Position numbers and translations under genes: made by a program | Shown: positions 7,013 through 13,736 of the stretch, piece after piece | How the letters are laid out: every line of letters begins with the position of its first letter | Numbering within the stretch: the stretch's first letter is position 1 | The notes under the pieces: model-generated | What the model saw: the letters and a program-made list of their open reading frames with translations, nothing else | Told to the model about the DNA's origin: nothing | The model's database searches: none | Assembly: GCA_945883505.1 (NCBI GenBank) | Contig: CAMCXL010000009.1 | Span: 1-64,000 of the forward strand | DNA length: 64,000 bases | Direction of reading: 5' to 3' | From: Rhodoluna limnophila | GTDB lineage: Bacteria; Actinomycetota; Actinomycetes; Actinomycetales; Microbacteriaceae

Positions 7013-7711
7013 CTAGCGAAGAAACAGCATGCCGTTTCGCTCAACCACGGCAAAGTTTTTAAGTTCTCCGGATGCTGGTCCAGAAATTCTCTTTCCGTCC
7101 TCTGTTGAAAATTGTGAATCGTGACAGGTGCAGATGATTGCTTGAGCTGTGGCACGGCTCACCTCACAACCAGCGTGTGTGCAAATAGCAGAGTAGGCGG
7201 CAAAGTTTCCCCTGGTGGGTTGAACAATCATCAGCACACCAGCTGTTGAATCAACTTTCACTCCCCCGCCAACTGGGACCTTAGAGCTTTCGATCAGGCT
7301 TCCTGTTATTGGGGCAGCTACTGCCCCAATGGTTGCAACCAGAACGCCATTGACAATCTTGATTGGGACTTTTTCCAAGCCGGTGGTGGCAGGACCAGAA
7401 ATCCTTGCCCCGGTTGAAGCATTGAAGACGCTTTTATCTGTTGGGCAGGTTATTCTCCCAGCTCGAACACCGGAGGCTGTGAGATTGGTCTTATCACTTG
7501 GGCAGCTAGCTATGAACCCGGAGAACTTTCTTGCGGTTCTGCGATAAACCAGGATTCGGGTGCTACCGGAGGTGAAGTTCTTGGCTGCCTTGGTCTTGAT
7601 CTGGTCGAATCGACCCAGACTGATGCTGCTGCCGAAGGCGGCGGGTCCAGCCCAGAGAAACCCGGCGAGCGCAACGGCTCCTGCGATTAGCTCTCGTCTT
7701 CGAATTCCCAT
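7013..7711 (-). CDS. Rieske 2Fe-2S protein with an additional degenerate Rieske-like N-terminal domain
   Basis: CTHAGC...CTCHDSQF Rieske motifs; Tat-like N-terminus MGIRRRELIAG; first half aligns to the second without cluster ligands. Confidence 0.85.
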   Translation of the reverse strand: MGIRRRELIAGAVALAGFLWAGPAAFGSSISLGRFDQIKTKAAKNFTSGSTRILVYRRTARKFSGFIASCPSDKTNLTASGVRAGRITCPTDKSVFNASTGARISGPATTGLEKVPIKIVNGVLVATIGAVAAPITGSLIESSKVPVGGGVKVDSTAGVLMIVQPTRGNFAAYSAICTHAGCEVSRATAQAIICTCHDSQFSTEDGKRISGPASGELKNFAVVERNGMLFLR

Positions 7712-7939
7712 TTGAGGACCAACCTAGGCGATTGCTGGGCGCTTGAACAGGCCTTTTCCAGGGGGGTCAATAATGTCGGTGGCTAGCCACAAAATTAGAC
7801 CCCGAGCTGGCCTCTTTTTGAGACTTTTGAACAATTCCGGCGACACGCCTGAGAATGAGCTGATAAAAGCCTCAAGTTAAGGTTTAGTCTTCGGATTACA
7901 ACTAAAAACAACTAAATAAGTGAAGTTTTTTCCGTGTCG

Positions 7940-7955
7940 GTACTAGATGTAGTGG
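7940..7955. promoter_or_regulatory. candidate NrdR box upstream of nrdHIEF
   Basis: gtaCTAGATGTAGtgg resembles the NrdR-box consensus acaCwAtATaTwGtgt. Confidence 0.5.
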
Positions 7956-8052
7956 TTTAGTGCTAATGTAATAAATCCGAACTTCGAGAGAATTTCACGA
8001 ATTTAGCTCAAAACAGGGGCATTTTGCCCCGTATTTCAGGAGGAACCACCAG

Positions 8053-8277
8053 ATGTCAGTAACCGTTTATACGCTCCCATCCTGCGTCCAGTGCGATAGC
8101 ACCAAGCGCATGCTCAAGAGCATCGATGTTGACTACGAAGAAGTAGACATGAGCCAGGATCCGGTTGCTCTAGAAATGGTAAAGACCCTGGGATACACCG
8201 CAGCACCAGTAGTTGTTTCCGGCGATGACCACTGGAGTGGTTTCCGTATGGAAAAAATCCAAGCACTAAGCGCCTAG
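8053..8277 (+). CDS. nrdH: NrdH glutaredoxin-like redoxin
   Basis: SVTVYTLPSCVQCDSTKRML (CxxC) and DHWSGFR; RBS aggagga. Confidence 0.95.
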   Translation: MSVTVYTLPSCVQCDSTKRMLKSIDVDYEEVDMSQDPVALEMVKTLGYTAAPVVVSGDDHWSGFRMEKIQALSA

Positions 8278-8289
8278 AAATATAGGCGG

Positions 8290-8709
8290 GTGTTTTCCAA
8301 AGTGCTCGATATCGTTTACTTTTCGAGCGTCTCAGAAAACACAAAAAGGTTTGTAGACAAACTCGGCACCAAAGCTATTCGGATTCCCCTAAAGTCCGAG
8401 GAAGCAGCCGAGTTTGTATACGAAAGGGACAACGTTTTAGTTGTACCTACTTATGGGGGCGGAAACGACGGATCTACTGTTCCTAAGCAGGTCATCAAAT
8501 TTCTGAACAATCCTGAGAACCGCAAGCACATCAAAGCGGTAATCGGCGGGGGAAATACCAATTTTGGTAGTCACTTCTGCAAAGCCGGTGACATTGTCGC
8601 CACCAAGCTCGGTGTTCCATTGATTTACAAATTCGAAATCACTGGAACTCCGGAAGACGTAATCGAAGTTAAAGAAAGGCTGGCCCAGCTGTGGCAAACC
8701 AACTCGTAG
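8290..8709 (+). CDS. nrdI: ribonucleotide reductase assembly flavodoxin NrdI
   Basis: [45 protein letters not shown] start. Confidence 0.95.
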
Positions 8710-10868
8710 AGATCGCTGACGATCAAGGAAACCTCCTAGGCAAAACTGGAGTTGAGTCCGCCATGAGTTATCAGGACCTCAACGCCATGATCAACCTGTG
8801 GGGTGAGGACGAGAAGCTACAACTTGAAAAAGACAAGCTAGCCGTTCGTAAGTACTTCCTAGAGCACGTCAACCAGAACACCGTCTTCTTTCACTCGTTG
8901 AAGGAGCGCCTGGACTACCTGGTTGAGCACGAGTACTACGAGAAGGAAATCCTTGACCAGTACTCCTTCGAGTTCATCAAGGCCCTAGAAGAACTTGCCT
9001 ACTCAAAGAAGTTCCGCTTCGAAGCTTTCATGGGTGCCTACAAGTTCTACACCGGCTACGCACTAAAGACCTTCGATGGCACTCGCTACCTAGAAAGATT
9101 CGAAGACCGCGTGGTAATGGTTGCCCTTACCCTTGCAGCAGGCGATGAGACAGTAGCAACCAGCCTGGTTGAGGAAATGATTTCTGGAAGATTCCAGCCA
9201 GCCACCCCAACATTTTTGAACTGCGGTAAGAAACAGCGCGGCGAGTTCGTTTCCTGTTTCCTTCTTCGCATCGAAGACAACATGGAGTCAATCTCTCGTG
9301 GAATCAACTCAGCTCTGCAGCTTTCAAAGCGCGGTGGCGGTGTTGCACTTTCGCTTTCTAATATCCGTGAGTATGGCGCTCCGATCAAGAAAATCGAAGG
9401 CCAGTCCTCCGGAATCATTCCGGTGATGAAGCTTCTAGAAGACAGCTTCTCCTACGCCAACCAGCTGGGTGCTCGTCAGGGAGCAGGAGCGGTTTACCTA
9501 AACGCTCACCACCCAGACATCCTGAGATTCCTAGACACCAAGCGTGAGAACGCTGACGAGAAGACTCGTATCAAGACACTTTCTATTGGTGTTGTCGTTC
9601 CCGATGTCACCATGGAACTAGCCAAGAACAACGAGGACATGTACCTGTTTAGCCCATACGATGTCGAGAAGGTTTATGGCATCCCATTTGGAGATATCTC
9701 GGTCACCGAGAAGTACAACGAGATGGTTGATGACCCGAGAATCAAAAAGTCCAAGATCAAGGCTCGTGAGCTATTCGAGCGCATCGCGGAGCTTCAGTTC
9801 GAGTCCGGCTACCCATACGTTATGTATGAAGACACCGTGAACCGTGCGAACCCAATTGAGGGCCGCATCAACATGTCAAACCTTTGCTCTGAGATCCTGC
9901 AGGTAAACACCCCAACCACCTACAACGCCGACCTGTCCTATGACAACATCGGTAAGGACATCTCCTGCAACCTAGGCTCTATGAACATTGCCATGGCGAT
10001 GGATGGACCTGACTTTGCTAAGACTGTCGAGGCAGCTATCCGTGCCCTAACTGCAGTTTCTGACATGTCAGACATCGAGTCGGTAAGGTCTATCTCCGAT
10101 GGAAACCACAAGAGCCATGCCATTGGCCTAGGTCAGATGAACCTGCACGGTTATTTGGCCCGTGAGCACGTCCACTACGGATCCGAAGAAGCGCTGGATT
10201 TCACCAACATGTACTTCTACACCGTTGTGTACAACGCCATCAAGGCTTCCAACAAGATTGCTATCGAGCGTAAAAGCTCATTCCATAACTTCGAGAACTC
10301 GAAGTATGCAAGTGGTGAGTACTTCGAGAAGTACACCGACCAGGTTTGGGCTCCGGCAACTCAGAAGGTCAAGGAGCTCTTTGGTAAGAGCAACATCCAG
10401 ATTCCTTCTCAGGATGACTGGAAGGCTCTGAAAGAGTCAGTTATGAAGCACGGTATCTACAACCAGAACCTTCAGGCTGTTCCACCAACCGGGTCCATCT
10501 CTTACATCAACAACTCAACTAGCTCCATCCACCCAATCGCATCTCGCATCGAGGTTCGCAAGGAAGGAAAGCTAGGAAGGGTTTACTACCCAGCTCCTTT
10601 CTTGGACCAAGAAAACTGGGACTACTACGAGGACGCCTACGAGGTAGGCCCTGAGAAGATCATCGACACCTACGCCGTTGCCACACAGCACGTCGACCAG
10701 GGCTTGTCTTTGACGCTGTTCTTCAAGGACACTGCCACCACCCGTGATGTCAACAGAAGCCAGATCTACGCATGGCGTAAGGGCATCAAGACCATTTACT
10801 ATATCCGTATTCGTCAGGCGGCCCTCGAGGGTACCGAAGTCGAAAACTGCGTCAGCTGCATGCTCTAG
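8691..10868 (+). CDS. nrdE: class Ib ribonucleoside-diphosphate reductase alpha subunit
   Basis: Full-length NrdE motifs, C-terminal CVSCML redox pair; position after nrdHI. Confidence 0.98.
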
Positions 10869-10883
10869 GAAGAGAGACAATAA

Positions 10884-11855
<972 letters not shown>

Positions 11856-11868
11856 GAAAGGAAATCTC

Positions 11869-11919
11869 ATGGATTGCAATTGCAGTAAAGACGGTTGTGG
11901 TTGCGGAAGCAAGAGCTAA
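11869..11919 (+). CDS. 16-aa Cys-rich micropeptide MDCNCSKDGCGCGSKS, last ORF of the nrd operon (not in the ORF track)
   Basis: ATG..TAA 13 nt after the nrdF stop, SD-like gaaagga at good spacing, terminator directly downstream. Confidence 0.6.
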   Translation: MDCNCSKDGCGCGSKS

Positions 11920-11937
11920 CCAACCCATTTGAAACAG

Positions 11938-11965
11938 CCGGCTAACTGCTGTTAGCCGGTTTTTT
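11938..11965 (+). terminator. Rho-independent terminator of the nrd operon
   Basis: CCGGCTAAC-TGCT-GTTAGCCGG followed by TTTTTT. Confidence 0.92.
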
Positions 11966-12029: not shown

Positions 12030-12857
12030 ATGGACAGCGCAGTCATCCTGGCCTTCACGGTCACGCTGTTTGCTGGCCTTGCAACCGGTATTGGTTCCGC
12101 GATTGCCTTTTTGTCTAAGACAACCAACAAAGCTTTCTTTGCTCTTTCGATGGGCTTTTCAGCCGGTGTGATGATCTACCTGAGCTTCGCAGAGATCTTG
12201 CCAAAGGCCTCCGGCTACATCGCTTCCGAAAGCGGAGAAAGCAATGCCGCGGCCATTGCCGCAGCTTCTCTAATTGGCGGCATGATCTTGATGGCGCTTA
12301 TCGATGCGCTGGTTCCATCGGGTGCTAACCCGCACGAGAATACCCGCGTTGAGCTGATGAGCGAGCCGGCTGGCACCCTAGAAGAAATTGGTATCTCCCA
12401 AAAGCGCCTGCTGCAGATGGGTATCTTCGTAGCGCTGGCAATCGCCATCCACAACTTCCCCGAAGGTCTTGCAACATTTCTTCTTGTTCTTGACGATCCC
12501 GAAATCGGTATTGCTCTGGCAGTTGCCGTTGCAATGCATAACATCCCAGAAGGTATTGCCGTATCGGTTCCGGTTTACTACGCGACCAAAAGCAAGATCA
12601 AGGCGTTTCGCCTGAGCTTCCTCTCGGGCCTTGCTGAGCCAGCCGGAGCGGTGATTGGGTATCTGATCTTGGCGCCATTCCTGAGTGATTTTGTTCTGGG
12701 GGTTATCTTCGCGATGGTTGCCGGAGTCATGGTCTTTCTTGCAATTGACACCTTGCTACCGACCGCCAGAAACTCATCCCGCGGTCACCTAACGGTTTAT
12801 GGGTTGATTGGTGGCATGGCGGTTATGGCTGGAAGTTTGGTACTGCTGAGTCTTTAG
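12030..12857 (+). CDS. ZIP-family metal transporter, ZupT-like
   Basis: AIAIHNFPEGLATF and AVAMHNIPEGIAVS ZIP motifs. Confidence 0.93.
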   Translation: MDSAVILAFTVTLFAGLATGIGSAIAFLSKTTNKAFFALSMGFSAGVMIYLSFAEILPKASGYIASESGESNAAAIAAASLIGGMILMALIDALVPSGANPHENTRVELMSEPAGTLEEIGISQKRLLQMGIFVALAIAIHNFPEGLATFLLVLDDPEIGIALAVAVAMHNIPEGIAVSVPVYYATKSKIKAFRLSFLSGLAEPAGAVIGYLILAPFLSDFVLGVIFAMVAGVMVFLAIDTLLPTARNSSRGHLTVYGLIGGMAVMAGSLVLLSL

Positions 12858-12932: not shown

Positions 12933-13736
12933 TTAGCCAACAATCGCCGGAATGATGGCTCCAGAGAATACCTGCCAAGCAAGGATTGACTTCGCTACCA
13001 AGCTCAGGGTGATGTATGTTGCCTCACCATAGAGATAGTTCTTCCAAGGACCAATTTTCTTGTATTGGAAGGCCTGGTTGAAGGCAAAGGTGTTGAAGAA
13101 GAAGAAAAGTGCAGCGATGATGCCATAGACGAATCCAGGAATCTCTGCTGCGCTTTCGCTACCTGGCTGCAGGGTATACAAACCAATGATTAGCCAAGGA
13201 ACGATACCAGTCATGGAACCGAAGATAAATGGCAGTCCCTGGCCGTTTCCTGGGGTTTCATACTTCTCCTGAATAGCACCGAAGAAGATCATCGAAGCAT
13301 TGACGGCAAAGATACCGGCAAGGGCAGCGAAGTCAGAAACTCCGGTTAGCTGAGCGATCAGCCAAATCATTACCGACGAGGAAAGTGAATACTCAACCCA
13401 GCGGAAGTAGTTGTGGTTTAGCTTTAGCCCTGCCTTATAGCGAGGGAAGAACTGGTTAGAGGAGATTAGGAAGTGGAAAAAAGCCGAAAGCAGCAAGAAT
13501 CCAACAACTCCGGCACCGATGTTGACATCGAATAGCTCAACGCGCTCTGGCGGAACTGGAACCCCTGGAGGGCCAGTTGGGTAATCGATAGTTGCCGGGA
13601 AAAGAATCTGGTTATCAAGCAGAGTCAGAACATATCCAAGGCCTGCTGCCTGGATTAGGTGCAGAAAGCCTGCGATGACGTTGTATCTGCGCAGACCATC
13701 AATTTGTTGATTTGGTGTTCGTGTTTTCTTGGCCAA
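12933..13736 (-). CDS. heliorhodopsin
   Basis: LRRYNVIAGFLHLIQA, RWVEYSLSSSVMIWLI and YGEATYITLSLVAKSILAWQVF (Schiff-base Lys); TTG start with AGGAGG upstream. Confidence 0.93.
   Translation of the reverse strand: MAKKTRTPNQQIDGLRRYNVIAGFLHLIQAAGLGYVLTLLDNQILFPATIDYPTGPPGVPVPPERVELFDVNIGAGVVGFLLLSAFFHFLISSNQFFPRYKAGLKLNHNYFRWVEYSLSSSVMIWLIAQLTGVSDFAALAGIFAVNASMIFFGAIQEKYETPGNGQGLPFIFGSMTGIVPWLIIGLYTLQPGSESAAEIPGFVYGIIAALFFFFNTFAFNQAFQYKKIGPWKNYLYGEATYITLSLVAKSILAWQVFSGAIIPAIVG

Follow-up and report, generated by a model that had tools for sequence, protein, structure and literature searches.

A Conserved Four-Cysteine Micro-ORF Behind nrdF in One Microbacteriaceae Lineage, with a Putative Thiol-Based Role

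The nrdHIEF operon in the window (the whole 64,000-nucleotide stretch of Rhodoluna limnophila DNA analyzed here) ends with an additional, very small cistron encoding a 16-residue peptide with four cysteines, MDCNCSKDGCGCGSKS. The protein sequence has been kept by evolution, so its product is very probably a real protein; judged by comparison of orthologs, the micro-ORF is very probably a real gene and not a chance ORF. We accept a putative thiol-based role, of the metal or redox type, for this peptide, and we tentatively favor, at a probability of roughly 0.4, a guard against thiophilic metals: a peptide with two dithiols that would bind Zn or Cu(I) and shield the Mn enzyme encoded by the same operon.

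Genomic Context

The genes nrdH, nrdI, nrdE and nrdF follow one another in this order on one strand, which identifies a class Ib ribonucleotide reductase (RNR) operon (Table 1). No RNR large subunit other than the encoded NrdE was found in this genome, which is 98% complete. Class Ib RNR relies on a Mn cofactor (PMC9936198). The region upstream of nrdH contains a conserved ACTAGATGTAGTGG element, represented by ACTA[CG]AT[GC]TAGT in relatives, and the corresponding region in a sister genus contains an AAGTT[CA]AAGTTGTGG-like element; both resemble NrdR boxes. On the opposite strand, the operon and its downstream neighbor are flanked by genes for a Rieske protein and a heliorhodopsin.

Table 1. 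Coordinates of the nrdHIEF operon, the micro-ORF and neighboring features in the window.
Feature	Position	Strand	Description
Rieske [2Fe-2S] protein gene	7013-7711	-	Divergent from nrdH
nrdH upstream region	7842-8052		Conserved element resembling NrdR boxes
nrdH	8053..8277	+	Redoxin, CVQC active site, first operon gene; PF00462, glutaredoxin family
nrdI	8290..8709	+	Flavodoxin-like activase of Mn-NrdF; PF07972
nrdE	8691..10868	+	Large subunit of class Ib RNR with the tail ...VENCVSCML
nrdF	10887..11855	+	Class Ib RNR small subunit
nrdF stop and micro-ORF ribosome-binding site, TAAGAAAGGA	11853..11862	+	GGAGG in most relatives
Micro-ORF, MDCNCSKDGCGCGSKS	11869..11919	+	Probable CxC-x4-CxC microprotein; conserved in relatives, protein-level selection
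Intrinsic terminator	11936..11965	+	Closes the operon; hairpin 11936-11961, then T's
ZIP-family metal transporter gene	12030..12857	+	Next gene after the operon; PF02535
Heliorhodopsin gene	12933-13736	-	Tail-to-tail with the ZIP transporter gene; PF18761 (E 7e-93)

The micro-ORF is 51 nt long, with ATG at 11869-11871 and TAA at 11917-11919, and consists of the codons ATG GAT TGC AAT TGC AGT AAA GAC GGT TGT GGT TGC GGA AGC AAG AGC TAA. Its cysteines, arranged as C3-x-C5-x4-C10-x-C12, account for 4 of the 16 residues (25%); every one of them is part of a CxC, with Gly, Ser, Lys and Asp between them and no aromatic residues. A spacer of 13 nt separates the nrdF stop codon (TAA, 11853-11855) from the ATG, and the ribosome-binding site, AAGAAAGGA, overlaps this stop codon and ends 6 nt before the ATG. 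The terminator, an 11-bp hairpin with a T tract, starts 16 nt 3′ of the micro-ORF stop; the stem sequence varies in relatives, with the hairpin retained. The sequence-only reading had described this four-cysteine ORF as the last cistron of nrdHIEF, preceded by a Shine-Dalgarno-like site at good spacing and followed by a terminator. Re-reading returned the same coordinates and translation, both signals are in place, the four nrd genes are confirmed upstream, and the position behind nrdF is conserved. The CxC-x4-CxC codon pattern occurs once in the window against 0.11 occurrences expected by chance; as a clean short ORF it occurs once genome-wide, and no paralogs are found elsewhere in the genome.

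Occurrence in Related Genomes

The nrdF loci of relatives were gathered first without using the motif, and the region 3′ of nrdF was then read. The micro-ORF follows nrdF in 20 of the 22 nrdF-bearing genomes of one neighboring (sister) genus; Aquiluna-named records fall in the same NrdF clades as this genus. Within the window's own genus it is present at 3 of the 21 loci with a readable nrdF 3′ end, and a third genus carries it at its single nrdF locus (one genome). The remaining actinobacterial nrdF loci that were read, those of Microbacteriaceae genera, mycobacteria and rhodococci among them, do not have it. A pattern scan of 401 genomes of the family recovered the micro-ORF in 3 of 85 genera, and the reversed pattern produced one match. 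The same kind of scan in metagenomes found it behind an nrdF end on 68 contigs, with a length of 15-16 codons. A conserved cysteine-rich short ORF, which the sequence-only reading had proposed to look for in relatives, is thus found there. The carriers form a group of very small actinobacteria from fresh and marine waters.

Pattern matches with a recognizable NrdF upstream always encode a peptide of 15-16 aa; longer, shorter or non-nrdF matches were rejected as homologs, being unrelated sequences located away from nrdF. A separate metallothionein-like ORF of 35 aa with 12 Cys, MDCKCEKCGCNCHCDKVCKTCANDVCTGCECKHCK, was encountered at L203:11069-11176 (+) and also in L117, L128, L147, L190 and L223. 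It is unrelated to nrdF, and its surroundings in L203, the one context read, are phage-like DNA.

On a NrdF tree of 66 sequences, the presence of the micro-ORF requires three changes, compared with a mean of 19.3 after shuffling; it is clustered much more tightly than chance would give. This fits one origin in one nrdF lineage combined with some loss, on a tree whose deep branches are weak. At L032 and L264, TAAGCACTAG lies directly behind nrdF and the micro-ORF is absent, as if a deletion had brought TAAG up against the CACTA that ends the micro-ORF. At least one loss is apparent. Genome G104 (L265) is also without the micro-ORF.

Selection on the Encoded Peptide

An ORF this short could have arisen by chance, or could be an incidentally open part of a structured 3′ UTR or sRNA. 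The antisense register-matched frame of the alignment also has a low pN/pS (0.16/0.51), though this is expected of a mirror frame. We consider a non-coding explanation highly improbable in view of the substitution pattern among 17 distinct aligned micro-ORF sequences, all found through NrdF alone: pS is 0.633, pN is 0.137 and dN/dS is 0.109, a value that 2000 column shuffles never reached, and this low-dN/dS pattern is missing from the other sense frames. Length differences among orthologs comprise whole codons only, and the start codon and Shine-Dalgarno sequence (mostly GGAGG, retained 4-9 nt before the ATG) are conserved despite variable spacing to nrdF. The sequence-only reading had named synonymous bias and frame-disrupting indels as deciding points; the former is present and the latter are missing from the relatives aligned. 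Start, ribosome-binding site and frame are thus all conserved together with a synonymous bias, as in protein-coding genes. Mean pairwise identity falls from 0.78 within the micro-ORF to 0.50 in the short spacer and to 0.34 over the 20 nt that follow the stop codon.

None of the four cysteines varies: their codons have a pN of 0 and a pS of 0.41, reflecting TGC/TGT swaps. The non-Cys codons have a pN/pS of 0.29, with 5 of 2000 shuffles as low, and residues besides Cys are therefore also kept; the selected positions are D/G2, N4, K7, D8 and the GKH end. In the L277 ortholog the spacer between the cysteine pairs is shortened, resulting in CNCGGSCGC.

The distance from the nrdF stop to the micro-ORF varies from 9 to 14 nt across orthologs, and so does the relative frame. 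The micro-ORF is therefore not an extension of NrdF, and readthrough or frameshifting is ruled out.

Genes Following the Operon

The next gene in most micro-ORF-bearing loci encodes a ZIP transporter, but it is replaced by an Nramp transporter in L165, L177 and L198, by an MFS transporter in L173 and L141, and by a convergent S13 peptidase gene in L143 and its relatives. Conversely, ZIP genes lie behind nrdF without the micro-ORF in G063, G104 and G484, and in relatives lacking the micro-ORF Nramp often comes straight after nrdF. Whatever gene comes next, the micro-ORF keeps its place behind nrdF, and it therefore belongs to nrdF and not to the downstream gene. Several related lineages (L007-L012, L242, L243 and others) have an MntH-like Nramp gene directly 3′ of nrdF.

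A short, cysteine-rich ORF with first a terminator and next a metal transporter gene behind it is also the arrangement of a cysteine-sensing leader, in which ribosome stalling at Cys codons would control termination before the ZIP gene. Cysteine-rich upstream ORFs are proposed attenuators in mycobacteria (PMC4633059). However, a co-oriented downstream gene is not present in all orthologs, no conserved alternative hairpin competing with the terminator appears among the 15 sequences folded, and selection extends to non-Cys residues. We therefore regard the attenuator explanation as improbable and, given the convergent downstream genes, largely refuted; as a leader of the ZIP gene in particular the micro-ORF was rejected, since the downstream gene varies. 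A structured RNA was likewise ruled out: the 15 micro-ORF-bearing sequences folded with a complete terminator share no fold besides that terminator, and an Rfam search yielded nothing above threshold, its sole sub-threshold match being the terminator.

ZIP or Nramp (Mn/Fe) transporters come next in most loci, which ties the locus to divalent-metal supply. The type of importer beside the Mn-RNR has apparently been swapped repeatedly, with Nramp elsewhere and ZIP in the window's lineage, and such repeated coupling is consistent with class Ib RNR having a Mn cofactor.

Possible Function

Since the four invariant cysteines form two CxC pairs, the peptide is most naturally read as having a metal-related or thiol-redox role, and both kinds of chemistry would fit such pairs. 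To this extent the metal-binding or redox microprotein suggested by the sequence-only reading holds; its details, Mn loading of NrdF and re-reduction of NrdE/NrdH, are unsupported. Mn(II) and thiolates are poorly matched, and delivery of Mn by the peptide is therefore unlikely, direct Mn loading being chemically improbable for a thiolate peptide.

We hypothesize instead that a cytosolic microprotein of 15-16 aa would be made together with NrdF from the last nrdHIEF cistron, with the two CxC dithiols as its functional core. Acting as a minimal thiolate binder, it may grip Zn2+ and Cu+, as its motif suggests, and may thereby keep these ions from the apo-NrdF dimetal site and from the RNR thiols. 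Meanwhile, Mn would enter through the neighboring ZIP or Nramp importer and be loaded into NrdF with the help of NrdI. CxC peptides are tight binders of Zn(II) (for Ac-CSC-NH2, log beta ZnL2 is 19.77; PMC8028610), and in a bacterium Cu is able to displace the Mn of NrdF (PMC8557878).

The same invariant cysteines could make the peptide a dithiol redox microprotein, whose CxC pairs would cycle between dithiol and disulfide, passing electrons to the C-terminal CVSC tail of NrdE or to NrdH, or repairing these after oxidation. CxC is a known redox-active arrangement, and the chemistry of the operon is itself dithiol-based (NrdH CVQC, NrdE CVSCML). However, wherever NrdH could be read in micro-ORF loci it is intact, its CVQC does not differ from that of relatives lacking the micro-ORF, and the cysteine pair of the NrdE tail is likewise the same with and without it, so that no redox gap is visible. 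The shortened inter-pair spacer of the L277 ortholog and the little docking surface offered by 16 residues also speak against this possibility, which we consider doubtful, though a serious rival of the metal-guard model.

Another candidate role, in our view unlikely though likewise a serious rival, is that of a binding partner or metal clasp: the peptide would attach to NrdF, to NrdI or to the metal importer, perhaps by way of a Zn site that both share, and would tune assembly or import, much as E. coli MntS influences Mn availability. Its strict linkage to nrdF while the adjoining importer changes and the selection on its non-Cys residues are consistent with docking, and small proteins influencing Mn supply are known, as MntS illustrates (PMC4361602). 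Nevertheless, no residue of NrdF, NrdE or NrdH, Cys or other, tracks the presence of the micro-ORF among the loci compared; NrdI has one separating column, which is poorly constrained and uninformative.

The same NrdHIEF is present in many relatives, close ones included, without the micro-ORF, and this, along with the lack of a tracking RNR residue, indicates that the peptide is accessory and not a core subunit. Both observations also weigh against the details proposed by the sequence-only reading; a role at the importer step, or the protection from thiophilic metals that we favor, fits as well as re-reduction of NrdE/NrdH or better.

Comparison with Known Systems

Metallothioneins, like the micro-ORF peptide, are very small and Cys-rich and contain CxC arrays; the peptide differs in having only 15-16 aa and 4 Cys and in being encoded inside an RNR operon, and we do not claim homology. 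Fungal Cu-thioneins have 26 aa and 7 Cys, and to our knowledge the peptide has fewer Cys than any known metallothionein. Of the metallothioneins reported, fungal forms with 26 aa once counted as the shortest (PMC4755600), and the peptide is shorter still.

Closest to the peptide in putative function, besides metallothioneins, is MntS, a small protein linked to Mn supply that helped activate NrdEF in E. coli under Mn limitation (PMC4361602). MntS is set apart by length (42 versus 16 aa) and by gene position, being encoded away from nrdHIEF under MntR; here, too, homology is not claimed. The mycobacterial Cys-rich upstream ORFs are similarly tiny, conserved, actinobacterial and missed by annotation (PMC4633059), but they lie upstream of Cys-metabolism or other genes, whereas the micro-ORF is last in its operon and is kept even where the gene behind it is a different one or lies convergently. 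In gene order, NrdH CVQC, NrdI, the NrdE CVSC tail and NrdF, the operon in the window matches standard nrdHIEF operons; the micro-cistron in fifth place is extra and was seen in a single Microbacteriaceae lineage.

A search of the openly accessible literature yielded no account of a Cys-rich peptide in an nrd operon. When the reading of the peptide was artificially extended for a PDB search, only meaningless matches to cathepsin K were returned (E 0.77 or worse).

Implications

On balance, we consider it slightly more probable than its opposite that the micro-ORF represents a microprotein family that is new and counts among the smallest conserved proteins known; this family would serve class Ib RNR as a dedicated metal guard or redox partner of Mn-NrdF and would have evolved inside nrdHIEF of streamlined aquatic actinobacteria. 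A selected four-cysteine peptide from the same operon offers a new, concrete candidate in two matters: the way in which Mn-RNR escapes mismetallation, and the possibility of helpers besides NrdI and NrdH. The case also shows that conserved genes of 15 codons exist in streamlined genomes, well under the limits of gene callers, and that sequence comparison alone can recognize them.
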